The notes under the pieces were generated by a model that was given only the letters and a program-made list of their open reading frames with translations, had not been told where the DNA came from and searched no databases. This document shows, piece after piece, positions 14,090 through 63,180 of a DNA stretch of 64,000 nt. This DNA comes from a virus. The stretch lies in the IMG/VR virus record IMGVR_UViG_3300020469_000001, positions 1 to 64,000 of that record. One strand, given 5' to 3'. Numbering within the stretch: position 1 is the stretch's first letter; each line of letters opens with the position of its first letter. A program made the position numbers and the translations under genes.

Positions 14090-14118
14090 ATTATATCAAA
14101 AATAAGAGGTGATGTCAA
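14090..14118 (-). promoter_or_regulatory. Sigma70-type promoter of the fibre operon
   Basis: Leftward TTGACA (14113-14118), 17-bp spacer and TATAAT (14090-14095) match consensus perfectly. AAAATAGTTC directly precedes the -35, as at several other sites in this window. Transcription would start near 14083, 15 bases before the first fibre gene, in the gap after the J-like gene's downstream neighbour. Confidence 0.85.
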
Positions 14119-34271: not shown

Positions 34272-36329
34272 TTAGCTACCTTTATAAGCAAATGCCCACT
34301 TAGAAGTTGCACCGTCAATTAAGTCAGTGAATCCTAATCTCTGAGAAGCCACTAGGACTCTTCTTTGATTAGCTACTTCGTAGTCAGATTCTATTGTAAC
34401 ACCTCTTAATCTTGGCATTACATAGTTTCTTGGGTATACAGCGATTGCGCCATATTTACCAGCTGCTTTAGTTGCGAATTCATCACACATGATTACTCTT
34501 GATCCGAATACTTGTCCGATTTCGCCTGATAGTTTTGTTGCCATGTCGCCAACTAGGTTAGCATCTTGGAACTCAGCATCTTCTAGTAAGTTGTAGTACA
34601 CGTCTTGTGAGACAATGTAAACAATTTCTGAAGGATTGATACCATATTTACCCATGTTCTTTCTCATGGCTAATAGGTCAGCTGCTGTAACTGCATCAGT
34701 TGCTGCGAATCCAGAAGCACCGTCTGAAGTTTCGTGGTTATCACCGTCAGCCATATTTAATAGCCCAGCAAACGCTCCTGATGAATAAACACCATTGTCG
34801 TGGTTACCAGCTAAAATAGCATTTTCGATACTTCTTGCGTGTGATCTTACCATTGACTCTCTAATTAAAGGAAGTATTGGCATGATTGCATCTTCTTCAG
34901 TCTCATTACCTAAGTATGATTGTGAAATCAACTTAACTGTTGAAAGTGTTCTTTCAGCTAAGTCTACACCACCGTAAGGTGAACCTAATGTGTCGCCTCT
35001 TTGGGCTAAGTTACCATGTGGTGAACTACCTGAAGCTGTTTGAGCTGAAGCAAATTCAGCATAACCAGCATCTGGCATGATTGGGATAATCATATTAGCA
35101 GAAGTCATAGCAATTTCTCTAAATAGAGGCGCTAAGACTAGCTCGTTTTGAATATCTCTTTCAATATTTGTTGAAACGATTTGCTCAAAGTCTGCTGAAG
35201 ATACTTGAACACCTGAGTGTTCGTTCACTTTTTGCATAATTGATTTTGAGTAGTCATTGTCCCATCCTTTCCCAGTAGCTAAACCAGCAAATTTTGCATC
35301 AATAATATCGTTTTCGAATTCCTTCTTCCAATTACCGTTTCCTTGTCTATCAGCAAAATGTCTTTTAGAATCACGAATACTCATGATTTCTTCAGATTTT
35401 TCTGCTAATTGTTTTTCAAGGGAATCGACAACTGTTTTCAGATCTTCATTCTTTTCATTGACTCTAGTTTCTAGGTCGTTCATTAGCTTTTCAGCTCCTG
35501 TTAAACCTGCTTCCACTATAGTCTTTGTTTCTTCCTGTTTTGCTTCTTGAGCAGCTTTTTCTTCAGCTTCTACTTGAGCTAGCTTTTCAGCCTGCTCTTG
35601 TACTTGCTTTACTTCAGCTGCCTTTGCTTCGGCTTGCTTCATTGCAATTTTAGTCGCAGTATCTTCTGCTACTTTTTTTGCAAATGCTTCAAGGTCGATT
35701 GAAGTTTCAGGAGATTTTCTTTCTTCTGACATATCAGTCTCCGTTGATGAGGATTTCTCCTCGCTTGGCTGCTCAATTTTAACAGCGTCTGCTGCTGCGG
35801 TTGAGTTAGCCTGTAAAATTTCTTTCTGGTAGCTTCTGTAATCTTCCATAGAATCAAATGATTTTGCTAATCCAAAGGTTGCCCCTTGGTTGCAAGGCAC
35901 TGAGACTACTGAAACTTCAAAAAGCTCCGCATCTTTTATTTTATATCCATCGGTTTCAGTCATATATTCTGAATCCTTGCATCTGAAACCAACAGAAAAT
36001 GCTCCAAGGACTCCATCTTTAACTAATTGAGTTACATCGCCGGCAGCTTTAGATATCTTTGCAGTTATCTCTAAGCCTTTATCGGTTACTTCTAAACCAC
36101 TGGCTCTGCCAATTGGTTTATTGTAATCATGGTTAAAAAGAATAATTGGATTACCTTTATAGTTTTCCAATCCGCCTTTCATCCACGCTTCTGATTCGAT
36201 AATATCTCCAGCTCTATCTAGTCCGTTTGTACTTGCAGACCCTTTGATATTAACTCCGCCATCATCAGTTTCACCTAATGATTTAAAAGTGCTAGTCCAT
36301 TGATATATCTTTTCGTTATTTTTTGACAT
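34272..36329 (-). CDS. Fused prohead protease, scaffold and HK97-fold major capsid protein (685 aa)
   Basis: Residues ~10-175 are an HK97-type serine protease: ILFNHDYNKPIGRA (His), LGAFSVGFRC (Ser) and ELFEVSVVSVP. Residues ~190-320 are charged coiled coil (AEAKAAEVKQVQEQAEKLAQVEAEEKAAQEA), as in a scaffolding delta domain. From ~330 the HK97 capsid fold follows (QIVSTNIERDIQNELVLAPLFREIAMTSANMIIPIMPDAGYAEFAS; GVTIESDYEVANQRRVLVASQRLGF). The frame is uninterrupted, so the three usually separate functions are one polypeptide, presumably self-cleaved on assembly. The start overlaps the preceding small gene by 14 bp. Confidence 0.88.
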   Translation of the reverse strand: MSKNNEKIYQWTSTFKSLGETDDGGVNIKGSASTNGLDRAGDIIESEAWMKGGLENYKGNPIILFNHDYNKPIGRASGLEVTDKGLEITAKISKAAGDVTQLVKDGVLGAFSVGFRCKDSEYMTETDGYKIKDAELFEVSVVSVPCNQGATFGLAKSFDSMEDYRSYQKEILQANSTAAADAVKIEQPSEEKSSSTETDMSEERKSPETSIDLEAFAKKVAEDTATKIAMKQAEAKAAEVKQVQEQAEKLAQVEAEEKAAQEAKQEETKTIVEAGLTGAEKLMNDLETRVNEKNEDLKTVVDSLEKQLAEKSEEIMSIRDSKRHFADRQGNGNWKKEFENDIIDAKFAGLATGKGWDNDYSKSIMQKVNEHSGVQVSSADFEQIVSTNIERDIQNELVLAPLFREIAMTSANMIIPIMPDAGYAEFASAQTASGSSPHGNLAQRGDTLGSPYGGVDLAERTLSTVKLISQSYLGNETEEDAIMPILPLIRESMVRSHARSIENAILAGNHDNGVYSSGAFAGLLNMADGDNHETSDGASGFAATDAVTAADLLAMRKNMGKYGINPSEIVYIVSQDVYYNLLEDAEFQDANLVGDMATKLSGEIGQVFGSRVIMCDEFATKAAGKYGAIAVYPRNYVMPRLRGVTIESDYEVANQRRVLVASQRLGFTDLIDGATSKWAFAYKGS

Positions 36330-40067: not shown

Positions 40068-40628
40068 TTAGTCTCTAAAATTCCAAAATACTAGTGCGTA
40101 TCTTGTCCCTGAGGTCACTTTATCTACACCGTGCCACCATTTAGCTTTTATTTCTAAGCCGTCTTGTGGAAACTGTATAGCTTGACCAACTTTTTGTTCT
40201 AAAGGTTGCTCTTTATTCTTACCTAGTGAAAGATTACCACCTTCATAATCATCATTTAAAGGAATAATAACAATATCTTTTGCAGTTTTGTTAGTTCCTT
40301 CTTTCCAATAATTACTCTGGCACATCCACATACTATCTCTGTGAGGATTGGTAAAATCTCCTTCCTCATACTTCATTACTTTACTTCTGTAGACAGGTAA
40401 ACCGTCCCAAGTATCAAAGCAACTTAATTCAGATTGCTGTACGCTTCTGCCTCTGCCACCTTTTTTGAGAACGACAGTATTTGCTTCCAGCTCATCTTTT
40501 GTCATGTTCTGTGCATCAACATCAAAGTTTATATCTCTTTTATATATATCATCTTCCCAGCTTTCAACAGAGTTTATTATCTGTTGACAGCGTTCTTTTG
40601 ATAGTGCGTTCTCAGTGTATTTTAACAT
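40068..40628 (-). CDS. 2-oxoglutarate/Fe(II)-dependent dioxygenase (186 aa)
   Basis: The protein has the prolyl-4-hydroxylase-like layout: an H-x-D in NPHRDSMW, then the distal His in KWWHGVDKVTSGTRYALVFW with the Arg that binds 2-oxoglutarate eleven or so residues later. These enzymes hydroxylate proteins or nucleic acids. They are frequent in marine phages, where targets are unproven. It is inserted among basic virion-like genes; possibly it modifies one of those Lys/Pro-rich proteins. Confidence 0.8.
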   Translation of the reverse strand: MLKYTENALSKERCQQIINSVESWEDDIYKRDINFDVDAQNMTKDELEANTVVLKKGGRGRSVQQSELSCFDTWDGLPVYRSKVMKYEEGDFTNPHRDSMWMCQSNYWKEGTNKTAKDIVIIPLNDDYEGGNLSLGKNKEQPLEQKVGQAIQFPQDGLEIKAKWWHGVDKVTSGTRYALVFWNFRD

Positions 40629-42739: not shown

Positions 42740-42928
42740 CTAAGTCCAACGAGGTGGCTCGTCTGGACACTCAGCCCATCGTAGTTTTGTTTTGAGGGGC
42801 ATAAAACAGTGACAAATCTTACAAGTTTTCCAAAACTTACTATAGTTTGGACACTGTTCACAAATCTTTAATCTTTCTTTATGTGACTTTTTATTCGAAG
42901 TCCGCGTACCAATTCGTTCCATATTCAT
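42740..42928 (-). CDS. Small zinc-ribbon-like protein (62 aa)
   Basis: CEQCPNYSKFWKTCKICHCFMPLKTKLRWAECPDEPPRW has five or six cysteines in C-x2-C spacing, a zinc-binding knuckle widely found in small phage proteins of unknown function. The gene starts inside the end of the methyltransferase gene (38-bp overlap). Confidence 0.75.
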   Translation of the reverse strand: MNMERIGTRTSNKKSHKERLKICEQCPNYSKFWKTCKICHCFMPLKTKLRWAECPDEPPRWT

Positions 42929-43394
42929 TTAATTTATTAGTCCACCATTCTTCGTTATGTAGACTTACATGAAAATTAGTACCATCACTAAACTTTTTAA
43001 TTGCTGGTTTAGTATCAATATGAAAATACACAGAGTTTCCTAAAAAGAATATTGAGTGTAGTACACTATCGACTTCTTCTGGTAGTATGTGTTCCATCAC
43101 ATCTACACATAGTACTAAATCGAAAAAGTTACATTTATATCCTGCTAGTTTATTATACTTAGCTACGTAAGGATCGTATAGTGTTGGCATTGGTATACCC
43201 CAATCTTCGTGTACATTCTGTCGAGTGTACTGCCAACCTTTACCACAACCAAAGTCTAAAACATTGACAGGATTTACTCTGTCTATAACTTTCTTAATTA
43301 TATCTTTGTTCTTTACTGTTGTTCTACCACTCATTGTAGTAGTGTTTTCATGAACCCAGACATACTCTTTAGCAAGTCTTTCCTTATCGATCAT
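42891..43394 (-). CDS. SAM-dependent methyltransferase (167 aa)
   Basis: NVLDFGCGKGWQYT (about residues 44-57) is the SAM-binding motif I, and FDLVLCVDVMEHI is the motif typical of small-molecule, lipid or glycan methyltransferases (class I). It lacks DPPY/NPPF, so it is not a classical N6-adenine DNA methylase. The substrate is unknown. Its start overlaps the upstream basic protein gene by four bases (ATGA). Confidence 0.8.
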   Translation of the reverse strand: MIDKERLAKEYVWVHENTTTMSGRTTVKNKDIIKKVIDRVNPVNVLDFGCGKGWQYTRQNVHEDWGIPMPTLYDPYVAKYNKLAGYKCNFFDLVLCVDVMEHILPEEVDSVLHSIFFLGNSVYFHIDTKPAIKKFSDGTNFHVSLHNEEWWTNKLNEYGTNWYADFE

Positions 43395-43965: not shown

Positions 43966-43994
43966 ATTATATCAAATTACCAACCTGATGTCAA
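43966..43994 (-). promoter_or_regulatory. Promoter downstream of the cyclase gene
   Basis: Leftward TTGACA (43989-43994), 17-bp spacer, TATAAT (43966-43971). The upstream extension AAAATAGTAC overlaps the last codons of the cyclase gene, so this promoter restarts transcription right after the curli-like operon. Confidence 0.85.
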
Positions 43995-43997
43995 GTA

Positions 43998-45782
43998 CTA
44001 TTTTCGTATGGTATAGATTTTTACAGGTTCTGACTTACCTTTTACAGTTACCTCGTCAAGAAACTCATAATCATAACCATCTACTAAACTGTGCTCAGAT
44101 ATAATTAAGTCAGCATCATATTCTTTACAGCTAGATTCTAGTCTAGCAGCCAGATTGACGCTATCACCAAGAACGCTGTAATCAAAGCGAGTGCTGCTGC
44201 CAAAGTTTCCAACGACACAGTCCCCGGTGTTGATTCCCGCTCCTGTATTAATCTCATCCAAGCCTTCTTCTCTGAGTTTTTCATTTAACTCCTCCAATGC
44301 CACTCTCATTTCGAGAGCTGCCTTTGTTGCATTTTCGACATGATTCTCGTCTGGACACGGCGCTCCCCAAAATGCCATGATGCAATCTCCCATATATTTG
44401 TCTATTGTTCCCCCATGCTTGAGAATAATCTCAGTCTGATTATCAAGGAAACGATTAATGAGGCTCGTAAGTCCTTGTGGATTCTTTTGGTATTTTTCCG
44501 AAATCGGGGTAAATCCTCGTATATCAGAAAAAAGAAAAGTGAGTCGTGAAGTTAACCCACCCAATCTCAGTAATGTTGGGTCGTCCTGTAATTTTTTTAC
44601 TAAGTCGGGACTAACGTATGTCCCAAATTGTTGTTTGATTCGAAGTTTCTGTTGATACTCCGATAGGAAACTCAGAAAGGTATGAATACTCCAAAAGAGA
44701 ACGGATATAATTACGATTCCACTAACGTCAAGCAAGTAAGAAGATTTATATAGATGCCAGGCTCCATATAAACTTCCTCCAGTTATCAGTAATAGTGCGG
44801 GAACGGAAAGCCAGACTGACCTTGATGCAAAAGCAAGTATTATCAGTGCTAGTAGTGTTGCGATGATTTCTGCTCCTGTAGCCCAAGTTGGTTGGCTAGG
44901 TGCGGTTCCTGTAATTAGATTGTGTAGAATGTTCGCTTGGATTTCGTGTGGGTATTTAGCCCCCGCAGGGGTCGGCACTGGGTTAGTTATACCCTCTGCA
45001 GTCGTGCCGAATATAACGAACGGAGCTTCTATTGGTTTCTTAAGAAACTCCAGTCCGCTTTGTTTGTAAAACTTCGTATTCCAATTTAAAAAGATACGAC
45101 CATTCGCATCTGTATTCATCAGTGGGTAGTTTGGGATTCTTATCCAATCAATACCTTCTGGTGTTGTTTTTAGCTGGTACGAAGGATCGTTTACGGCGAC
45201 TCTTAAGAGTTCCAAGGCGAAACTCGGGTAAAGTTTTGACTGCACGTTTACGACTAGGGGAATGCGACGAGTAACCCCGTCTATTTCCGGCGTAGCGGTT
45301 ACTACTCCGATTCCCTTTGTTTTTGACTCCAGCGTAGACGCGGTAGGTAAAATTCCTGGTAGTTCGAATAGCCATGGTAATGGGTCCTCTCCTAACTGAG
45401 CAGTACCTACATGAGGGTTTGTCCCAGTTACTTGTGTCGATGCTGCTGAAGCAAGGACTGTTGGTATGTATTGCATTCGCATAGCAAAGTAATTATCATA
45501 ATCTTTGCCACGAATGTCGGGGTTTGGCATCAAGATTGTAAAACCTGGTACGGCCTGTGTAGTAGTGATTAAGTCACCAAACACTGACCTAGGTAATGGC
45601 CATCCGCCATAAGTCTGTAGAAAATCTTCATCAAGATCAACTATCAGAATGTTCTCGTTCTGTACTGGTTCGGTATTCATGATTAAGTAGTCGTAACCAA
45701 TTAGTTCGACTCTTTGCATGACACCAGGATTCCATATAAGCAATCCCATAAACAGTACTATTGTGATAACTTTATTTAGCAC
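43998..45782 (-). CDS. CHASE2-sensor adenylate cyclase, class III (594 aa)
   Basis: One N-terminal membrane helix (residues 5-18) leads to an extracytoplasmic CHASE2 domain (~25-290; ILIVDLDEDFLQTYGGWPLPRSVFGDLI, GVVTATPEIDGVTRRIPL). Three membrane helices (~300-370) follow, and then the cyclase domain: LFSDIRGFT with the first metal Asp, DKYMGDCIMAFWGAP with the substrate Lys and second Asp, GINTGDCVVGNFG, and DYSVLGDSVNLAARLE with the transition-state Asn/Arg. All catalytic positions look intact, so it should make cAMP (Lys points to ATP). It is the last gene of the curli-like operon and overlaps its neighbour by seven bases. Confidence 0.92.
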   Translation of the reverse strand: MLNKVITIVLFMGLLIWNPGVMQRVELIGYDYLIMNTEPVQNENILIVDLDEDFLQTYGGWPLPRSVFGDLITTTQAVPGFTILMPNPDIRGKDYDNYFAMRMQYIPTVLASAASTQVTGTNPHVGTAQLGEDPLPWLFELPGILPTASTLESKTKGIGVVTATPEIDGVTRRIPLVVNVQSKLYPSFALELLRVAVNDPSYQLKTTPEGIDWIRIPNYPLMNTDANGRIFLNWNTKFYKQSGLEFLKKPIEAPFVIFGTTAEGITNPVPTPAGAKYPHEIQANILHNLITGTAPSQPTWATGAEIIATLLALIILAFASRSVWLSVPALLLITGGSLYGAWHLYKSSYLLDVSGIVIISVLFWSIHTFLSFLSEYQQKLRIKQQFGTYVSPDLVKKLQDDPTLLRLGGLTSRLTFLFSDIRGFTPISEKYQKNPQGLTSLINRFLDNQTEIILKHGGTIDKYMGDCIMAFWGAPCPDENHVENATKAALEMRVALEELNEKLREEGLDEINTGAGINTGDCVVGNFGSSTRFDYSVLGDSVNLAARLESSCKEYDADLIISEHSLVDGYDYEFLDEVTVKGKSEPVKIYTIRK

Positions 45783-46282
45783 GATACATTTACGCCTGTA
45801 ATATGATGGTAATTAAAATCTCTGCATTCTGAAGCCTCTTCATACAAGTAAAAGTTTCTTATTATTACTGCTGCAAGAATCCAGTTTGTAAGCACCATTT
45901 GCTCCTCTTCTAAGTTAGCTGCTATAATTGGAGTTAATACAGATTTGTGTAGTAAAAATTCTGCAGCAGACGGCTTTTCCGGCAGTAAAAAGTTGGCTTC
46001 CTTTATGTGCGGGTTGTTTCTAGTAAACACATATGAAGTTGTCATGTCAACCGCATTGAGAATATAGTAAGCTCTTAGTGTTCTCTTAGTGGGTTCATTG
46101 TTTATCTTTATAAATCTAAGACGCTTTTTCTCAGCAGCTTCTATTTGAACAGAGTCTTGCTTCATCTGTTCATAGTTGAATGGAGTTTCAGGTAGTGTTA
46201 AATCTAAGCTATCCGCTTGATTGTTTGACGCTAATAGTAACATCGGCACCATTACCAACGACAACATTGTAAGCTTTGCCAT
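45776..46282 (-). CDS. Secreted/membrane hypothetical protein of the curli-like operon (168 aa)
   Basis: I prefer the ATG at 46282 (MAKLTMLSLVMVPMLLLASNNQADS), which gives a clean signal peptide; an upstream ATG at 46318 adds 12 residues. After a helical region the protein has RAYYILNAVDMTTSYVFTRNNPHIKEANFLLPEKPS, a pattern like small multi-helix membrane proteins (DUF5658-like), and two late Cys. It overlaps the FecR gene end. Lying between FecR and the cyclase, it may link the two; unknown. Confidence 0.6.
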   Translation of the reverse strand: MAKLTMLSLVMVPMLLLASNNQADSLDLTLPETPFNYEQMKQDSVQIEAAEKKRLRFIKINNEPTKRTLRAYYILNAVDMTTSYVFTRNNPHIKEANFLLPEKPSAAEFLLHKSVLTPIIAANLEEEQMVLTNWILAAVIIRNFYLYEEASECRDFNYHHITGVNVSC

Positions 46283-47312
46283 CTTGTTCCAATATAATGT
46301 TATATCCAGTTTGTCCATTTATATCTAACCTTACACTTTGATTTACTTCTCGAATGAGAGTAAGAAACTCTGCATCTCCAAAAGTTGTAATCTGTGTGCT
46401 TGCATCTTGTCCGAATGTAGTACCTTTTAAATCTACAGGTGCTGCTCCAACGGATGCGAGTTCATTATTATCTAGTTCATCTACTGATTCTATTATTTCT
46501 AGTAGATCTTCCAGGAAGTTAGTTCCTAGGTAGTCTATGTCAAGTTCTCGAAAGTCTTCCTCTACTTCTAATAAGTCTACATCGAGCCCGTCGTAAGCGA
46601 GGTAGTCGATATCAAGAATATTAGTACCAGAGTCGTCACTTCCAGACGATCCCTCATTTTGTTGTATTTCTTCATTTTTCTTAGGTGGTGAGACAATCAA
46701 AAGATTGTCTATCAGATCTAGTGTTAAGTCGAGGATAACAGGTTTAGTAGGACTCTGTTCCCATACAGTTGTAACAGTAGATTGATACGGTTTATTTAGT
46801 ATTACCTGTCCTAAAGCAGTTGCTACTACAATCTCGCCAGAGGGCAGTCCGTTTGCATCTGGTAAGAGTATCACCAATGACTTACCGAACTCGTCAACGG
46901 TAACAGTAAAGTCTGTTCCTCGAATTGCGATTTGTGCTGTTGGTGTACTGATGTTGATATTCTGTTTGTTTATCTGTCCTATCTTACCAGTAATAAATCG
47001 AGCAGTGCCACTTGCAAATTGCATACTCATCTTTGACTTGTTTGGATTTGGGTCAAAGATTACTTCGTCTATAACAAGTTTGCTATGCTCTGTGAGTCGA
47101 ACTTGACTATCGTCTATGAATGTGATACCTAGTCGCCCATTAGCTGTACGCACATCATCCATTTGTTGAATGTCTTGTTCTAAAGTTGCAGGTAAGGTGT
47201 CATCTCGAATGACGGCACCTTGCCCGCGTAGTTCCGTGATTGCGCCTATATCAGCAAGAAGTGGATGTACCACCATCAGACTGAATAACACAGATGTTAC
47301 TGTTTGACGCAT
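46209..47312 (-). CDS. FecR-domain secreted protein (367 aa)
   Basis: A signal peptide (residues 1-20, VVHPLLA/DIG) precedes a FecR domain: GAVIRDDTLPATLEQDIQQMDDVRTANGRLGITFIDDSQVRLTEHSKLVIDE, then FASGTARFITGKI and the characteristic ISTPTAQIAIRGTDFTV. A long acidic segment (~230-300) and a beta-rich end (VRLDINGQTGYNII) follow. FecR domains usually sense or transmit surface signals in the periplasm. In bacterial genomes FecR-domain and CHASE2-cyclase genes are often neighbours, as here. The start lies within the end of the curlin-like gene. Confidence 0.85.
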   Translation of the reverse strand: MRQTVTSVLFSLMVVHPLLADIGAITELRGQGAVIRDDTLPATLEQDIQQMDDVRTANGRLGITFIDDSQVRLTEHSKLVIDEVIFDPNPNKSKMSMQFASGTARFITGKIGQINKQNINISTPTAQIAIRGTDFTVTVDEFGKSLVILLPDANGLPSGEIVVATALGQVILNKPYQSTVTTVWEQSPTKPVILDLTLDLIDNLLIVSPPKKNEEIQQNEGSSGSDDSGTNILDIDYLAYDGLDVDLLEVEEDFRELDIDYLGTNFLEDLLEIIESVDELDNNELASVGAAPVDLKGTTFGQDASTQITTFGDAEFLTLIREVNQSVRLDINGQTGYNIILEQDGKAYNVVVGNGADVTISVKQSSG

Positions 47313-47964
47313 CGCTCTCTATTTTTAACCAATCGAGTGCTAGTGTTGATTTTTGTTGTATTTCAATAGTATTTGTACTACCATTTAAATCCAAGTAAAA
47401 ATAACCTGCATCACTCGATGAGGCTCCTTGACCAGTTTTGGTCAATTCCATTGTATTACTATCTCCTAAGATATCCATATACGCAGTATAGTAGTCAGAG
47501 TCTATATCGAATGTTAAATCGTTACTGTCTCCGTCTAGTATTAGATCTAAGTCTAAATAACTTGCTCCTGCATTTTCACCGATGTCCCAATCAAAAACGT
47601 TTGAGCTACCTGTTACATCTACATTGATGTTTGCAAAGTCAACTGTATTTAGTCCTGTAGTATCCATAGAAAACTCGAATGTATTTGAATCTCCATCAAA
47701 TTCGAAGAAACCAGTAAAGTTTTCGCCTAATACACCGTCAGTTAGAAATTTATTTGAAGAACCAATCTGGTTAATATCCAATGTCCATGTACCACCGTTT
47801 AAGATAGCTTTTGTCATAGAACCGCTTGTTGCATCGTCACCACCAATAAGGTTGTTCGATCCTAGTTGCTCTAAGTCAATATTGACATTGTTTCCAGTTT
47901 GATCTATGTAAATTTCATTGTCTGCATATAAACCAAAGGATAGTAATAAAAGTAATATTCTCAT
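47251..47964 (-). CDS. Curlin-like secreted repeat protein (CsgA/CsgB-type, 237 aa)
   Basis: A short signal peptide (MRILLLLLSFGLYA) is followed by repeats built on curlin-like words with G-x-x-N or G-D-S-N: QTGNNVNIDLEQLGSNN, INQIGSSN, FDGDSNTFEF, VTGSSNVFDW, LDGDSNDLTF, ILGDSNTMEL, LNGSTNTIEI. Curlin subunits polymerise into amyloid fibres through such strand-loop-strand repeats. This one is richer in Asp than CsgA, and its late Cys pair (ICVIQ, TSTSC) is unusual. Its ATG overlaps the CsgG-like stop (TAATG). Confidence 0.8.
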   Translation of the reverse strand: MRILLLLLSFGLYADNEIYIDQTGNNVNIDLEQLGSNNLIGGDDATSGSMTKAILNGGTWTLDINQIGSSNKFLTDGVLGENFTGFFEFDGDSNTFEFSMDTTGLNTVDFANINVDVTGSSNVFDWDIGENAGASYLDLDLILDGDSNDLTFDIDSDYYTAYMDILGDSNTMELTKTGQGASSSDAGYFYLDLNGSTNTIEIQQKSTLALDWLKIESDASNSNICVIQSDGGTSTSC

Positions 47965-48830
47965 TACTTCTCTCCCCAGTACTTCCAGTACCCTTTCTCT
48001 TTGCCGTCTTTTATCAATTGAACTACTGCAGTTTCAAGCGCTGCTTGTATTGCAATAGATTTACTTTCATTCATTGCAGTTCCGCTTTCAAACTCTACGA
48101 GCTTTGTGCCTTCTGCTATAAACCTAAAGAAGTCATTTGATACTCCGACAGAGAGTATTTTCTTTGACGTAAGGATTTCCATTAAGATCTCTCCTGTACT
48201 CACAGAAACTAGTCTTAATGAGACCACTACGGTATCCTCACGATATTGCTTGGAGTTACCAATGCCTAAATATCTAGCACCTATACCTCCTGTTAATAGA
48301 TTAGTGTTATAATCTACTATTCCCCCTTCAATGATTAATCCAGCAAACAGTAGTGGAAGCTGCTCGTCTTCATCATTAAAACTTTGTCTAGTCTGTCTTA
48401 TTAATTGTCTTTCTCTAGTTAAGTGGTCAAGGCCACCTCTTTCGACAACTTTGAAGAATCCAGACTGTTTGAGTGCTCTTATGAGGTATGTCTCGGGAGC
48501 CATAGTAACAGCAGTACTGAAACTAGCTATACCATCGACACTCTTTCTTTGTCCTGTTGAATCTGTAAATTTGTATACGGCCACCACGGGATATCGTGAT
48601 GGTTGTGGAATTGTTTTAATTGCATCTGTAACTGGCGTATTGATAATAGCATCTCCAGAAAAGCATTGCGCTTTTCCGATAATAGTTACAACATCTTTAT
48701 AGTCTTCGTCTGGATTTGTTAAGCAAGGTGACACATATTTGTAATGTGTAAAGTTTGCACAACTAGCCAGTAGGAAAACCGAAGTCGCCAATAGGGATTG
48801 TAATGACAGTCGTTTCACCAGTAGCCTCAT
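47964..48830 (-). CDS. csgG: CsgG-like outer-membrane curli secretion lipoprotein (288 aa)
   Basis: The lipoprotein signal ends in the lipobox LLASC (Cys24). The body matches CsgG: VVAVYKFTDSTGQRK, SFSTAVTMAPETYLIRALKQSGFFKVVERGGLDHLTRERQLIR, then AGLIIEGGIVDYNTNLLTGGIGARYLGIGNSKQYREDTVVVSLRLVSVSTGEIL, and FESGTAMNESKSIAIQAALETAVVQLI. CsgG forms a nonameric pore that exports curlin. All parts of the fold appear present. The gene overlaps the CsgF-like gene by 68 bp. Confidence 0.93.
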   Translation of the reverse strand: MRLLVKRLSLQSLLATSVFLLASCANFTHYKYVSPCLTNPDEDYKDVVTIIGKAQCFSGDAIINTPVTDAIKTIPQPSRYPVVAVYKFTDSTGQRKSVDGIASFSTAVTMAPETYLIRALKQSGFFKVVERGGLDHLTRERQLIRQTRQSFNDEDEQLPLLFAGLIIEGGIVDYNTNLLTGGIGARYLGIGNSKQYREDTVVVSLRLVSVSTGEILMEILTSKKILSVGVSNDFFRFIAEGTKLVEFESGTAMNESKSIAIQAALETAVVQLIKDGKEKGYWKYWGEK

Positions 48831-49257
48831 TAAATATGGTCATTGTAATTGATATACCATCTGATGTCCATGTAATCAGATTATCAAACAACATGAATGA
48901 TCCTTCCGATGCAGGGTTTTCTCCGAACAACTGGTCTACTAGCTGTCGAGATAACTGTGCGTATACTCTACTCTCAAAGTTCTTTATAAATCTTGCGAGA
49001 GTACTATTATTTTCCTCTCGTTCTGCGGCTTCTTTGAGTGCTTTAATTTCTGCGGCGATTGCCTCTTTTCTTGACATCTCTTGTGAGTCAATTGTAAGAT
49101 AGTGGCTAGATGTACCTACACCACTGAATGAAGGATTTTTAAATCCAAACTTTATTTCATCCGCGTTTAAGTCTGCTGCAATTGCTATAAAGCTTAATAT
49201 AAATAAAGCTCCTATAACACTATTTGCAACTCTGTTATTTAGTTTTCTTTCGTTCAT
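48763..49257 (-). CDS. csgF: CsgF-like curli assembly protein (164 aa)
   Basis: A signal/membrane segment (residues 13-29) precedes KFGFKNPSFSGVGTSSHYL, matching the CsgF N-terminus that plugs into the CsgG pore. Helices (EAIAAEIKALKEAAERE; RFIKNFESRVYAQLSRQLVDQLF) and a beta end (ITMTIFNEATGETTVITIPIGDFG) follow as in CsgF. No CsgE-like gene is seen nearby. It overlaps the preceding small membrane protein by 23 bp. Confidence 0.88.
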   Translation of the reverse strand: MNERKLNNRVANSVIGALFILSFIAIAADLNADEIKFGFKNPSFSGVGTSSHYLTIDSQEMSRKEAIAAEIKALKEAAEREENNSTLARFIKNFESRVYAQLSRQLVDQLFGENPASEGSFMLFDNLITWTSDGISITMTIFNEATGETTVITIPIGDFGFPTG

Positions 49258-49498
49258 TTTCTTTTAACTGTAAAACTGTGTCCAGTTTCTTTTGCAGTCG
49301 TATCATGTCATTATCCAACATTCTTATCTGGTCGATAAGTTGTAGTATGGTAATTTTCATTTCTTCGATTGCTGGGTCTATCTTCTCGGTCACTGTAGTC
49401 CATACGAAGTATACGAAATATCCAAGTCCAACCATTGCAACAACTGGAAATCCAAATTGTTGTATGGCATCAATCACGTCTTGCATCGATACTCCCAC
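49235..49498 (-). CDS. Small membrane protein with cytoplasmic coiled coil (87 aa)
   Basis: DVIDAIQQFGFPVVAMVGLGYFVYFVWTTV holds one N-terminal membrane helix (~15-33), followed by a coiled coil (ITILQLIDQIRMLDNDMIRLQKKLDTVL). The next upstream gene is a paralogue with the same plan. It leads directly into csgF with an overlap. It may be a holin-type or a scaffolding membrane protein; unknown. Confidence 0.65.
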   Translation of the reverse strand: MGVSMQDVIDAIQQFGFPVVAMVGLGYFVYFVWTTVTEKIDPAIEEMKITILQLIDQIRMLDNDMIRLQKKLDTVLQLKENERKKTK

Positions 49499-49766
49499 TT
49501 TCTACAAAGTTTTCTGCTCTTGCTATTTTTTCTAAGTCTGGTGCAAGTCCCAGCGCGGATGATACACTCATATCTATTTTAATCATATCATTGTTCATAA
49601 CTTTGATACGAGTAATTAACATCTTAGAGATTCCTCGAACTTCTTCTGTATCTCCAACAACGTCATCCATAATCTTTCTTATGATGAGAAATATAAAACC
49701 ACCCATAAACAGTGCTGCAGCGATAGGTGCTCCAACTTGTCCGATTACGTCAAATATCTCACTCAT
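49470..49766 (-). CDS. Paralogous small membrane protein (98 aa)
   Basis: DVIGQVGAPIAAALFMGGFIFLIIRKIMDDVV forms one membrane helix, then ITRIKVMNNDMIKIDMSVSSALGLAPDLEKIARAE. The spacing and the xNDMIK/RI(D/R) core are shared with the downstream 87-residue protein, so the pair arose by duplication. Start overlaps the upstream stop (ATGA). Confidence 0.65.
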   Translation of the reverse strand: MSEIFDVIGQVGAPIAAALFMGGFIFLIIRKIMDDVVGDTEEVRGISKMLITRIKVMNNDMIKIDMSVSSALGLAPDLEKIARAENFVESGSIDARRD

Positions 49767-49931: not shown

Positions 49932-50249
49932 CTAGAAGCCGATGCTTTCTCCGCATCCGCATCTATATGTTTCTTTTGGGTTGTTAAATCTGAATTCTTC
50001 ATTTAGTCCGTCCGTGTGCCAATCAATAGTCATGCCTTCTAAATAAGGCGCAGAGTTAGGGTCTACCCTAAATCTAATCTTGCCCCAATCTATTACCAGA
50101 TCATCTGAATAATTTTTAGGGTTAAAAGCAAAAAGATACTCCATACCACCGCAGCCACCCCCAGTAATACCAAGTCTAAAAACAAAGTTGTCTTCTGCGC
50201 TCGCTTTCTGTATAAGTTTAGTATACGCCTCATTAGTAATTTCTATCAT
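49932..50249 (-). CDS. A-type Fe-S carrier (IscA/ErpA family, 105 aa)
   Basis: FRLGITGGGCGGMEYLF (Cys33) and RCGCGESIGF (Cys97, Cys99) supply the three ligand cysteines of IscA/ErpA/SufA proteins. Length is typical. The family hands assembled Fe-S clusters to target proteins. Beside the IscU-like scaffold gene it gives the phage two parts of an Fe-S assembly line but no cysteine desulfurase; host IscS would be needed. Possible clients include the gpL-like tail protein. Confidence 0.9.
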   Translation of the reverse strand: MIEITNEAYTKLIQKASAEDNFVFRLGITGGGCGGMEYLFAFNPKNYSDDLVIDWGKIRFRVDPNSAPYLEGMTIDWHTDGLNEEFRFNNPKETYRCGCGESIGF

Positions 50250-50323
50250 CTATCTAATTTAAATAGTCTCCAAACATTTTGTATTCTGCTTGCTTTCATA
50301 AATTTGTGTATTTTTCTGAACAT
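50246..50323 (-). CDS. Mini-gene between iscU and iscA (25 aa)
   Basis: A GGGAGG ribosome site seven bases before the ATG at 50323, and an ATGA overlap with the IscA-like start, support translation of MFRKIHKFMKASRIQNVWRLFKLDR, a very basic amphipathic helix. It may be a coupling leader for the iscA gene or a micro-protein. It overlaps the 3' end of the IscU-like gene. Confidence 0.5.
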   Translation of the reverse strand: MFRKIHKFMKASRIQNVWRLFKLDR

Positions 50324-50712
50324 TTATCCTCCCAGTTCTGAATAGCCTTTCTTATTGCGTCTTCGGCTAGAACTGAGCAGTGAATCTTTATTGGCGGCAA
50401 CTGTAGTGCCTCGGCAATATCTTTGTTCTTAATTTCTTTTGCTTCTTCTATAGTAAGTCCTTTTAACATATCTACAAACATTGTAGAAGACGCGATAGCT
50501 GAACCGCATCCATATGTTTTAAATTTTACATCAATGATTTTTTCTTGTTCGTCAAGTTTAAGTTGTAACTTCATGACATCACCACAAGCGGGTGCTCCTG
50601 TCATTCCTGTAGCTATATCGGGGTCGTTCGGGTCAAAACGGCCTACGCTAAATTGCTTAGGACTGTTCAGTACTCCTTCGAACCTTTCGATAACTTCTTT
50701 ACTATATGCCAA
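50296..50712 (-). CDS. IscU/NifU-like Fe-S scaffold (138 aa)
   Basis: GAPACGDVMKLQL (Cys43, Asp45), TYGCGSAIASSTMF (Cys69) and KIHCSVLAEDAI (His111, Cys112) are the conserved cluster-ligand sites of IscU. The protein is full length. Its start overlaps the preceding gene by 11 bp. Scaffold and carrier genes are known as auxiliary genes in marine phages. Confidence 0.92.
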   Translation of the reverse strand: MAYSKEVIERFEGVLNSPKQFSVGRFDPNDPDIATGMTGAPACGDVMKLQLKLDEQEKIIDVKFKTYGCGSAIASSTMFVDMLKGLTIEEAKEIKNKDIAEALQLPPIKIHCSVLAEDAIRKAIQNWEDKCSEKYTNL

Positions 50713-51370: not shown

Positions 51371-51399
51371 ATTATACCAAATTTTAATCCTCGTGTCAA
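51371..51399 (-). promoter_or_regulatory. Promoter of the Fe-S/curli operon (leaderless)
   Basis: Leftward TTGACA (51394-51399), 17-bp spacer, TATAAT (51371-51376), with the extension AAAATACTTC. Six bases separate the -10 from the ATG at 51364, so transcription should begin at or next to the start codon. Confidence 0.85.
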
Positions 51400-56034: not shown

Positions 56035-56063
56035 TTGACACAAGTGATAAAAGCGAATATAAT
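56035..56063 (+). promoter_or_regulatory. Upstream promoter of the 103-residue regulator
   Basis: TTGACA (56035-56040), 17-bp spacer, TATAAT (56058-56063), followed by AAAAAGGAGG and a GTG at 56090 that is in frame with the regulator, so this promoter could produce a 35-residue-longer form. Confidence 0.8.
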
Positions 56064-56135
56064 ATATACATATTAAAAAGGAGGCAAAAGTGAAATACAA
56101 GAAAACAATCAAATCAAAGTTTTTTCATAAAATCC

Positions 56136-56164
56136 TTGACAATAGAAACAAAAGTGGTTATAAT
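56136..56164 (+). promoter_or_regulatory. Main promoter of the 103-residue regulator
   Basis: TTGACA (56136-56141), 17-bp spacer, TATAAT (56159-56164). GGGAGA and the ATG at 56195 follow. The spacer word AAAAGTGGT recurs at the large-RNA promoter. Confidence 0.85.
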
Positions 56165-56194
56165 ATACTATATAAAATATTTGGGAGAATACTA

Positions 56195-56506
56195 ATGGCA
56201 AACGCTAAAAATTATACAGAAGAAATGGTCAGTCAAATGACCGAAGCATACTCTGCTAACCCTAGTAGAGAAACAGTAGACGAACTTGCTCAAACTTTCG
56301 GCAAAACAACTAGAAGTATCATTGCTAAGTTGTCAAGAGAAGGAGTATACATCGCTCAACCTAGAACTACAAAATCTGGTGAACCAGTTGTAGCAAAGTC
56401 TGAGTTAGTTGCTCAACTCGAAGCACACTTTGGAATTGAACTACCTACACTTGTCAAAGCAGGTAAGCAAGACCTACAAAGATTGGTCGACACAATCGCA
56501 TCTTAA
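56195..56506 (+). CDS. Small DNA-binding regulator-like protein (103 aa)
   Basis: NYTEEMVSQMTEAYSANPSRETVDELAQTFGKTTRSIIAKLSREGVY fits a helix-turn-helix of the Myb/SANT or GcrA type; it closely parallels the protein at 61054-61362 (shared RETV-x2-LA, SII-x-KLSREGVY). A linker (TTKSGEPVV) and a helical motif (KSELVAQLEAHFGIELPTLVKAGKQDLQRLVDTI) follow. It is the only gene in the RNA-rich region and may regulate the surrounding promoters. GGGAGA precedes the ATG; an in-frame GTG at 56090 could give a longer form. Confidence 0.8.
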   Translation: MANAKNYTEEMVSQMTEAYSANPSRETVDELAQTFGKTTRSIIAKLSREGVYIAQPRTTKSGEPVVAKSELVAQLEAHFGIELPTLVKAGKQDLQRLVDTIAS

Positions 56507-56517
56507 TTGTTGAGGAG

Positions 56518-56536
56518 TGATTACCCTAAGTAATCA
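56518..56536 (+). other. Short hairpin after the regulator gene
   Basis: TGATTAC-CCTAA-GTAATCA gives a 7-bp stem followed by ATTTT, at most a weak terminator. It separates the regulator from the tRNA-like fold. Confidence 0.45.
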
Positions 56537-56553
56537 ATTTTGAAGAGAGTATC

Positions 56554-56624
56554 TATCTGAGGTAAGTGTCTACGGAAGCACACCTAAAGAGGAAGTAGCA
56601 AGTTCGACTCTTGCACCTCAGATA
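56554..56624 (+). ncRNA. tRNA-like structure without a normal anticodon arm (71 nt)
   Basis: TATCTGAGGT (56554-56563) pairs fully with ACCTCAGATA (56615-56624), giving an extended acceptor stem. A perfect T-arm GCAAG-TTCGACT-CTTGC (56598-56614) abuts it, as in tRNA. A D-arm-like GTG-loop-CAC with GG in the loop lies at 56566-56581. The anticodon position holds only CCT-AAAG-AGG, a 3-bp mini-stem, so it cannot decode. No CCA is encoded. It may be a decayed tRNA or a tRNA mimic, for instance a processing or charging decoy. Confidence 0.6.
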
Positions 56625-56671
56625 TCTCTGCTCTGCTCAAAGTTTAGTCAGTAAAAAAATCGCTTTTTCTA

Positions 56672-56700
56672 TTGACAAATCCTTAAAAAGCGAGTATAAT
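56672..56700 (+). promoter_or_regulatory. Promoter of a ~110-nt RNA
   Basis: TTGACA (56672-56677), 17-bp spacer, TATAAT (56695-56700). Confidence 0.85.
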
Positions 56701-56706
56701 ATATTT

Positions 56707-56812
56707 ATATTCAAAAAAAGGAAAACCCACTGGGACTGGGCATCTGGAAGTGATGACATAGTTAACACTTAGAATTAAACTGTTTGCCCTACCCACCTTT
56801 CAAGAAATAAAT
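56707..56812 (+). ncRNA. Short structured non-coding RNA (~105 nt)
   Basis: Starting right after a consensus promoter, this segment has no gene. TGGG (56731-56734) and GGGCA (56738-56742) pair with TGCCC (56785-56789) and CCCA (56792-56795); inside, AAGTG (56748-56752) pairs with CACTT (56766-56770). No clear terminator precedes the next promoter at 56824, so the transcript may run into the large RNA or be processed. Confidence 0.6.
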
Positions 56813-56823
56813 CAAAATTTTTC

Positions 56824-56852
56824 TTGACAAATGGTTAAAAAGTGGATATAAT
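56824..56852 (+). promoter_or_regulatory. Promoter of the ~930-nt RNA
   Basis: TTGACA (56824-56829), 17-bp spacer, TATAAT (56847-56852); predicted start about 56859. Confidence 0.85.
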
Positions 56853-56858
56853 ATACTT

Positions 56859-57797
56859 ATATTCAAAAACAAAAAAGAATAGCAAAACACGGAGTGAAGT
56901 ACGCCATTAAAGATACTTCTAGTGTGGCGACACGATAAAATGACTGCCGAACGCTCGTTAGATATTGAGAGAAAGCGTTAGATGAGTTCAATATCCGCTT
57001 TTGAGAGTCAGATACAGACATATCCTCCGCAGCAGGAAGCGAGTGTATCTTCGATTGACTTGTCGGTAAAGGGAGTATAAAAGCACGATAACTGCCAGTA
57101 ATTCCTACACTAAGTCCCTTTTTCGGGCAGTAGGTAGTAAGCGATTTCGTTGACTGCTCTCCAAGTAGTGTATTGGCACTATAAAGTCCTGAGGATTAGT
57201 ATGAATTACACAGGTAAAACAGTAAATCATACCGTGATTGACGCGTAGATACATCGAGAATATCACGCAGAGTGAGGAAACCACGCTGATTCTATACCAC
57301 ACCCTCAACCGTTTCGGTAGTAGGAAGTAGAGCATAGAACGAGTAGTAAACCAGTTTGACATTTCAGTGTGCAAGGTATGAGATAATTTCAAAACCCACC
57401 AAGTAATGAGAGCATAAATGCAAACTTCAAGGGCAAGGAAGTTAGAGGAACATATGATGTACTTTAGTTGAGACTTCCACGCTACCTGCGAGTGAGAACC
57501 CACGCGGCGATTCAGGTTTACCTGTCAAAGTAGTAGGGACATTGGGGGCAGTTAGCAACTTAGAGGAAATAGACACCGATTGATGAGTGAGGAAAACAAT
57601 CGAGTGAGCAAGTGAAAGGTCGATACAACCTCTATTCCAAGTATCGCACTTGCAGTTAGGCATACACTATCGTTGAGGTTTCGAGTAAAGCAATCCGAGA
57701 TAGAGAGTAATGCCAAGTTGTAGACCGATATCAGTCTGACAGCGATAGTAAAAAACAAATAGTTTTTTCGAGGGAACAGCGCGTTCCCTCTTTTTTT
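56859..57797 (+). ncRNA. Large structured non-coding RNA (~930 nt), GOLLD/ROOL-like candidate
   Basis: A consensus promoter and a perfect terminator bound 930 nt with no rightward gene. Many complementary segments are visible by eye. AACGCT (56950)/AGCGTT (56974) interleaves with GATATTGA (56961)/TCAATATC (56988), and AAAGGGA (57068)/TCCCTTT (57115) interleaves with ACTGCC (57091)/GGCAGT (57126): two H-type pseudoknots. Further stems are GTGT-GGCG-ACAC (56922), AGATACA (57010)/TGTATCT (57044), CGTGAT (57233)/ATCACG (57262), CGATTG (57577)/CAATCG (57597), and a two-part helix GCAAGTG...CGATAC/GTATCGCACTTGC (57608-57653). Length, ornate structure, phage context and nearby tRNA-like fold recall GOLLD and ROOL RNAs, but family membership is untested. 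Confidence 0.8.
57770..57797 (+). terminator. Rho-independent terminator of the large RNA
   Basis: GAGGGAAC-AGCGC-GTTCCCTC is a perfect 8-bp stem followed by seven T's. Confidence 0.95.
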
Positions 57798-57847
57798 GTC
57801 TCAAATAAGTTAACATCAAAATTTCTTATGTTAATTTAAAATAGTTC

Positions 57848-57876
57848 TTGACAAACAAGATAAAAGTGAGTATAAT
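57848..57876 (+). promoter_or_regulatory. Promoter of the rightward 58-61.6 kb operon
   Basis: AAAATAGTTC then TTGACA (57848-57853), 17-bp spacer, TATAAT (57871-57876). Confidence 0.9.
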
Positions 57877-59205: not shown

Positions 59206-59452
59206 ACATTATAAAGTGGGAATGAAAGCAAATGGTAGCACAATAGTAGCAATTCGATACCCCGAAGGCACTTCTAAGAAGTATGAACATTGGGAATGTC
59301 CTGCACGAAACAGTGTAGAACACATGGATGTCGAATTAGCAGATGGTAGAGTGTTATCCAGTAAGGATTTGATACTTGGAAACAAGTTCAAAGTCGAAGA
59401 TGTAGAGAAAATAGACAAATTTATATCTAAAATTAGTGGAGGTGTAGCATAA
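59195..59452 (+). CDS. Hypothetical protein (85 aa)
   Basis: A TTG at 59195, 14 bases after AAGGAG, gives 85 residues; an ATG at 59222 would give 76. MKANGSTIVAIRYPEGTSKKYEHWECPARNSVEHMDVELADGRVLSSKDL reads as small beta-barrel-like strands. One-base overlap with the MazG-like gene suggests coupling. Confidence 0.6.
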   Translation: MASKHYKVGMKANGSTIVAIRYPEGTSKKYEHWECPARNSVEHMDVELADGRVLSSKDLILGNKFKVEDVEKIDKFISKISGGVA

Positions 59453-59886
59453 TGAGTAAAATTAATGACTATGCTAGGTTTGTTGATAGTTGTACATCGG
59501 CAACAAGTAAAGATACTAGCAAAATGTGTGATAGAATGGACTATCTACGAGGAAACTACACAATGCAAGGTGGTGAAGTGCTAGAACAAGAAGTAGATAT
59601 GGCAAGATTGATGACTGCCCTGATAGGAATGATGGCAGAGAGTGGAGAATTTGCAGAAGTAGTGAAGAAAAAGGTATTTCAGTCAGATAGCAAGTTCAAA
59701 AGCGATGAGATTTTCCATATGAAACGAGAACTCGGTGATGTATTATGGTATTGGGTTCAAGGATGCAAAGCATTAGGTTTTACACCTGATGAAGTAATGG
59801 ATGAAAACATTAGGAAACTAGAGAGTAGATATCCGAATGGTTTTGAAGTAATTAGAAGTGAAGTCAGAGAAAAGGGGGACATATAA
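59452..59886 (+). CDS. MazG-like nucleotide pyrophosphohydrolase (144 aa)
   Basis: GMMAESGEFAEVVKKKV with Glu63-x-x-Glu66, then RELGDVLWYWVQGCKALGF with Glu93-x-x-Asp96, is the magnesium-binding pattern of all-alpha NTP pyrophosphatases. The ending ENIRKLESRYPNGF is also family-typical. MazG-like enzymes hydrolyse (d)NTPs or (p)ppGpp; in marine phages they are thought to adjust nucleotide pools or starvation signals. Confidence 0.88.
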   Translation: MSKINDYARFVDSCTSATSKDTSKMCDRMDYLRGNYTMQGGEVLEQEVDMARLMTALIGMMAESGEFAEVVKKKVFQSDSKFKSDEIFHMKRELGDVLWYWVQGCKALGFTPDEVMDENIRKLESRYPNGFEVIRSEVREKGDI

Positions 59887-62906: not shown

Positions 62907-62935
62907 ATTATAACAAAAATAACAGGTAGTGTCAA
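62907..62935 (-). promoter_or_regulatory. Leaderless promoter of the nuclease-like gene
   Basis: TTGACA (62930-62935), 17-bp spacer, TATAAT (62907-62912), six bases to ATG 62900. It is divergent from the promoter at 62967. Confidence 0.85.
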
Positions 62936-62966
62936 GAAATATATTAACCATTGGTATAGATTTACC

Positions 62967-62995
62967 TTGACTTCAGGTTATAAAGTTGCTATAAT
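62967..62995 (+). promoter_or_regulatory. Leaderless promoter of a small membrane-protein gene
   Basis: TTGACT (62967-62972), 17-bp spacer, TATAAT (62990-62995), six bases to ATG 63002. Confidence 0.85.
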
Positions 62996-63001
62996 ATGTA
63001 T

Positions 63002-63148
63002 ATGAATGAAAATGACATAAGCTATATAATCTTTTTAATCATGAGCATTGGAATGGCATACATGATTGGGAAGCAAATCGGAATACGAGGGACGATAGAC
63101 TATTTAGAAGAAGAAGGATTACTTACTTTCGATGACTCTGAAAAATAG
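63002..63148 (+). CDS. Small membrane protein (48 aa)
   Basis: MNENDISYIIFLIMSIGMAYMIGKQIGIRGTIDYLEEEGLLTFDDSEK has one membrane helix (about residues 7-23) and an acidic cytoplasmic end (LEEEGLLTFDDSE) like short phage inner-membrane proteins. No ribosome site; start codon right behind the promoter. The next promoter overlaps its last codons. Confidence 0.65.
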   Translation: MNENDISYIIFLIMSIGMAYMIGKQIGIRGTIDYLEEEGLLTFDDSEK

Positions 63149-63151
63149 TTC

Positions 63152-63180
63152 TTGACACCGAGTTAAAAATTTGATATAAT
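63152..63180 (+). promoter_or_regulatory. Promoter of the hsp20-lysozyme unit
   Basis: AAAAATAGTTC, TTGACA (63152-63157), 17-bp spacer, TATAAT (63175-63180). Confidence 0.9.

Follow-up and report, generated by a model that had tools for sequence, protein, structure and literature searches.

A predicted curli-like secretion module with FecR and CHASE2 cyclase genes in a T5-like phage lineage

Background

Why would a phage carry the genes for a bacterial surface fibre export system together with a FecR protein and a membrane-bound adenylate cyclase? The question is raised by a group of eight genes on the minus strand (43998-49766) of IMG/VR virus record IMGVR_UViG_3300020469_000001, a marine bacterial virus, the first 64,000 of whose 105,272 bases are hereafter called the window. 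CsgF and CsgG were reported for pelagimyophages in 2020 (PMC7029224) and proposed in 2022 to form a lysis pore in phage Melnitz (PMC9004378); in the same year the full set CsgF-CsgG-CsgA/B-FecR-(CsgA/B)-cyclase was described for pelagiphages, including myo- and podophages, and found to be expressed in metatranscriptomes (PMC9599517). The module in the window is thus of an already published, conserved kind, and the coupling of FecR to a cyclase, which a sequence-only reading of this locus had regarded as new, was published before. What is new here is its presence in a lineage of T5-like phages, in which the position of the second curlin is frequently taken by a DUF5658-like gene; no report of T5-like phages with a curli module was found in the literature searched, whose coverage leaves out many journals. 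On balance, we think that this locus is best explained as a type VIII (curli-like) secretion module that is encoded by the phage and equipped with its own envelope sensor.

Results and discussion

The eight genes overlap or abut each other and encode, in the direction of transcription, two small membrane proteins (TMa, 49470-49766, and TMb, 49235-49498), CsgF (48763-49257), CsgG (47964-48830), a curlin-like repeat protein (Curl1, 47251-47964), a FecR-domain protein (46209-47312), a predicted membrane or secreted protein (U180, 45776-46318) and a CHASE2 adenylate cyclase of 594 amino acids (43998-45782). The sequence-only reading had delimited the module to 43998-49257; the genes within these limits were correctly recognized, including their overlaps, the lipobox of CsgG and the signal peptides, while TMa and TMb were missed. 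Pfam strongly supports its identification of CsgF, CsgG, FecR, CHASE2 and cyclase domains.

The pore proteins are the best-defined components. CsgG matches its Pfam family at 3.7e-49 and, as a profile, the solved E. coli CsgG at 8.8e-69, and carries the lipobox LASC. CsgF matches Pfam at 3.2e-19, and its family profile matches the solved CsgF at 4.5e-11; used as a lone phmmer query, the window CsgF found no match in the PDB. The mature N-terminus of CsgF shows the motif F-x-[NS]-P-S-F-S-G in 58 out of 58 phage CsgF proteins and in none of 2965 other phage open reading frames (ORFs). This looser motif, checked against the other ORFs, was used because a stricter version lost most members; for CsgG, the nine sequences aligned differed too much to allow a search by pattern. 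The profiles and motifs thus point to the features expected of type VIII secretion, a CsgG pore with a lipobox and a CsgF with a pore-binding N-terminus.

The curlin identity of Curl1 appears secure through its relatives. The orthologue in Melnitz matches Curlin_rpt at 8.6e-6, and a profile built from 28 phage Curl1 orthologues matches the solved curlin-repeat protein 8c50 at 3e-6. The sequence-only reading depended on a beta-structured curlin-like protein, and the AlphaFold model of Curl1 is a confident one, with repeated short beta strands (predicted local distance difference test score, pLDDT, 83.6; predicted template modelling score, pTM, 0.82). The window contains no second curlin. In the T5-like clade the slot for this protein is often occupied by a DUF5658-like gene, here U180: eight of its 15 homologues match DUF5658 (PF18902; best 8.3e-5), while U180 itself gives no match. 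Its homologues begin at M13, which makes 46282 the likely start. In Pelagibacter phage HTVC008M the second curlin (L002, 10638-11963) has an N-terminal PA14 domain (2.7e-6) followed by curlin repeats, an arrangement that would suit an adhesive fibre or its tip.

The cyclase matches CHASE2 (4.8e-32), Guanylate_cyc (9e-21) and phrog_35576 (1.6e-160), and is 38% identical to the HTVC008M cyclase over 99% of its length. Its catalytic motifs had been read as intact, and indeed the class III set is complete in the sequence, with two metal-binding aspartates, lysine and Ser/Thr/Asp at the purine positions, and the transition-state asparagine and arginine (D420, K462, D466, S536, N543, R547); these positions are nearly invariant among 56 phage cyclases. 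We take lysine together with serine or threonine at the purine positions to be the IIIb pattern.

The FecR protein matches Pfam at 2e-11, and its model matches the periplasmic signalling domain of PupR (6ovk) with an E value of 1.8e-5. It begins with a signal peptide and contains no further hydrophobic helix; neither a cytoplasmic anti-sigma region nor a transmembrane helix, which together with a partner ECF sigma factor define FecI/FecR iron signalling, is visible in it. Most likely it therefore represents a secreted, periplasm-facing type of FecR and not an iron regulator. A possible partner is suggested by bacterial genomes. In alphaproteobacteria, at least 33 of the 150 CHASE2 matches listed have a FecR-profile match within 6 kb, whereas chance alone, by a rough, uncomputed estimate, would account for about one, and the bacterial curli loci examined have neither FecR nor cyclase nor TMa/TMb nearby. 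FecR is thus probably the partner of the cyclase, and these neighbourhoods make it most likely that the two belong together. The pairing rests on proximity and not on operon order, as FecR was the same-strand upstream neighbour of none of 22 bacterial CHASE2 ORFs, and is often divergent or located further away. A FecR/CHASE2 operon controls biofilm formation in Burkholderia (PMC5192318). This BiofilmReg system shares with the window a secreted FecR and a CHASE2 membrane sensor; its output is a histidine kinase and its FecR carries LysM, whereas the phage system has a cyclase output and a curlin-like FecR tail.

This tail comprises the last approximately 35 residues of the phage FecR proteins (e.g. 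YNIIIEQDGKAYNIILNSGGQSTIRIRQSG), which resemble a pair of curlin repeats across lineages. Ile360 and Gln364 are invariant in a 28-member alignment, and a small beta domain is predicted with moderate confidence. With a profile of the tail, curlins are among the best non-FecR matches (13 out of 86 Curl1 and 2 out of 22 Curl2 proteins, compared to 3 of the 2965 other phage ORFs). The likeness is suggestive, and we treat it as a lead rather than a result.

One or two genes ahead of csgF were labelled 'histidine kinase' in the earlier description of the module (PMC9599517). The window proteins at this position, TMa (98 amino acids) and its paralogue TMb (87 amino acids), match phrog_18771 at 1.9e-22 and 3e-26, respectively. 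Each has a single computed hydrophobic helix, followed in TMb by a coiled coil, and in the carriers checked the proteins in these positions mostly comprise 80-130 amino acids with a coiled-coil-like tail. No kinase family matched the genes ahead of csgF in these carriers, and HATPase_c is absent from seven carrier records (the window phage and six others, including the complete HTVC008M and Melnitz). Judged by position in these carriers, and not by the sequences used in PMC9599517 itself, the published label finds no support.

A CsgG relative was found in 243 viral stretches, the best 80 of which were examined; 27 non-redundant loci with full flanks were compared, including HTVC008M, Melnitz and the window. 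CsgF, Curl1, FecR, cyclase and TMb are present at all 27 loci and TMa at 25; the presence of CsgG is trivial, as the loci were picked by CsgG similarity. The gene order is conserved nearly throughout, and two loci (L072 and L080) retain TMa/TMb beyond the cyclase. The co-occurrence of curli export and signalling genes across phages, as proposed by the sequence-only reading, is thus evident. The carriers have different backbones, among them T4-like myophages, a T5-like clade, a phage whose internal virion protein is of the T7-type and a further phage whose terminase and portal are of a different family. The phage CsgG proteins form one group apart from 11 bacterial CsgG proteins, and the distances between module genes correlate (Mantel r 0.68-0.94), as would be expected if the module has been transferred as a unit.

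In its backbone the window phage is not like the known curli-carrying pelagiphages; its terminase large subunit is 47.9% identical to that of Pectobacterium phage My1, which is classified in the Demerecviridae, and about 45% identical to those of T5-type phages, and its portal protein is approximately 40% identical to those of T5-like phages. By these two proteins, the carrier is a divergent T5-like siphophage related to the Demerecviridae. It shares with the module of PMC9599517 the order CsgF, CsgG, CsgA/B-like, FecR and adenylate cyclase, the second curlin being optional there, and differs in its T5-like siphophage backbone, the DUF5658-like gene in the curlin slot and the genes of about 90 codons for transmembrane/coiled-coil proteins before csgF. 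HTVC008M and the Methylophilales phage Melnitz encode orthologues of every core gene and of TMa/TMb (36-49% identity for CsgG and cyclase); in contrast to the window phage they are T4-like myophages with a second curlin. Bacterial csg operons share CsgG, CsgF and the curlin repeats with the phage module.

Evidence on the host is weak, as it comes from binning: a relative from the T5-like clade (L090, G001:C11) lies on a contig binned with a Pelagibacter metagenome-assembled genome, and another module (L152, G014:C1) is found in a second SAR11-family genome assembly. These phage contigs would make the two assemblies appear curli-positive.

The module probably belongs to a larger transcription unit, delimited by two minus-strand consensus sigma-70 promoters (TTGACA-17-TATAAT) with extended -10 elements. 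One is located at its head (51371-51399), the next directly after the cyclase gene (43966-43994). Exact TTGACA-N17-TATAAT sites occur ten times in the window, compared to 0.07 expected; others are located at 14090-14118, 56035-57876 and 62907-63180, with a plus-strand cluster at 56-58 kb. By its predicted limits, the unit would include minus-strand genes for an IscU/NifU-like Fe-S scaffold (50296-50712; NifU_N, 7.9e-40) and an A-type Fe-S carrier (49932-50249; Fe-S_biosyn, 1e-14). Both seem to be accessory. The scaffold gene lies beside the module in several lineages, though not in every module; in the T4-like loci L074-L079 an IscU relative directly follows the cyclase gene, and L063 has one close to the module. 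An Rfam scan of the window gave no matches, and thus no glutamine riboswitch, unlike in Melnitz; tRNA genes are also absent from the window. An ORF of 685 codons (34272-36329) has matches to families of the head maturation protease as well as of the major head protein. Protease and capsid protein thus appear to be fused here, while My1 encodes them in separate genes. Further genes outside the module encode a 2OG-Fe(II) oxygenase (40068-40628), a methyltransferase-like protein (42891-43394) and MazG (59452-59886).

If the module is a type VIII secretion system with an envelope sensor, the host RNA polymerase would transcribe the unit from its consensus promoter, CsgG would form the outer-membrane pore and receive the conserved N-terminus of CsgF, as the E. 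coli pore does, and Curl1, judging from homology and predicted fold, would be exported to build a surface fibre. TMa and TMb might act as constant inner-membrane partners. FecR could read curlin or fibre status via its curlin-like tail and signal to CHASE2, which would tune the level of cyclic AMP (cAMP). The likeliest benefit would be remodelling of the infected cell surface, leading to exclusion of rival phages or to aggregation, and not lysis. The sequence-only reading had named these two effects and altered uptake, all of them conjectural. The specific proposal that FecR is a fibre-status sensor, whose tail strands assemble jointly with curlin that has been exported or has stalled while the FecR domain reports to the cyclase, is a doubtful one in our view.

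Several observations weigh against the secretion and sensing module. CsgE is absent from the entire 105-kb record, as the sequence-only reading had stated; this gate is regarded as accessory and not essential (PMC7029224). The window Curl1 stays below the cut-off for Curlin_rpt (0.032), and a Foldseek search with its model revealed no significant fold in the PDB (best E value 0.27), so that this fold is predicted and not proven. None of the curlin matches to the FecR tail is significant alone (best non-FecR match 0.0093), and the reverse profile search with curlin repeats against the FecR tails was negative. Clumping was not seen during infection with Melnitz (PMC9004378). Finally, there is no cNMP-binding domain in the phage record, and cNMP_binding was detected in 11 out of 197 SAR11-family genomes, mostly in proteins of at least 870 amino acids. 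The rise in cAMP that the sequence-only reading had envisaged for the infected cell would thus have no obvious effector in a SAR11 host; if SAR11 bacteria are the hosts, cAMP would either hit an unusual target or work in cells that have no native pathway.

Of the competing explanations, import of nutrients or siderophores through the pore during infection (PMC9599517, PMC7029224) fares best, yet it seems unlikely to us. It would fit the lack of the CsgE gate and the Fe-S scaffold and carrier genes in the same unit; it leaves unexplained why a curlin is retained at all 27 loci, and the FecR protein resembles a partner of CHASE2 rather than an iron regulator. Somewhat less likely, the cyclase might be the actual payload, its cAMP competing with or jamming nucleotide-based defence or host regulation, with the curli genes serving as envelope sensor. 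The cyclase is universal in the loci and its catalytic residues appear intact, and SAR11 bacteria mostly lack such enzymes (a class III cyclase occurs in 3 of the 197 genomes, two of which owe it to these phage modules), but the scarcity of cAMP-binding domains in this candidate host family and their absence from the phage argue against this idea. Less likely still is a device for timing lysis, pinholin- or secretin-like, as suggested for Melnitz (PMC9004378). Pore proteins in a lytic phage and very weak holin matches of TMa/TMb (E values 0.04-0.06) would be in line with it. However, none of the 27 loci has lost the genes for curlin, FecR or cyclase, and the lipobox of CsgG resembles that of an outer-membrane lipoprotein. 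In addition, the proposal relied on Melnitz lacking curlins, yet proteins encoded next to its pore genes match Curlin_rpt; together with the conservation of the CsgF binding motif, this weakens the lysis-pore idea.

Assembly artefact or bacterial contamination has virtually no probability left, with nothing found in its favour: module and flanks are 100% identical in L004, L005 and L006 from separate IMG data sets, and further relatives of 70-90% identity keep the synteny, which rules out a chimeric contig and shows that the gene set is widespread and not, as the sequence-only reading had considered, confined to one assembly.

Conclusions

The module has crossed between unrelated phage types, and at the loci examined its signalling half was never lost, which indicates that the pair of secretion and signalling must matter. 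If a fibre is made, the virus would alter the surface of its host with a bacterial amyloid and bring along the sensor that controls it. Doubting the kinase and iron-regulator labels and linking FecR to CHASE2 turns a puzzle of annotation into a testable sensor model. Should FecR indeed sense fibre status, the assembly of a surface fibre would be coupled to cAMP in a host that perhaps has no other cAMP pathway.

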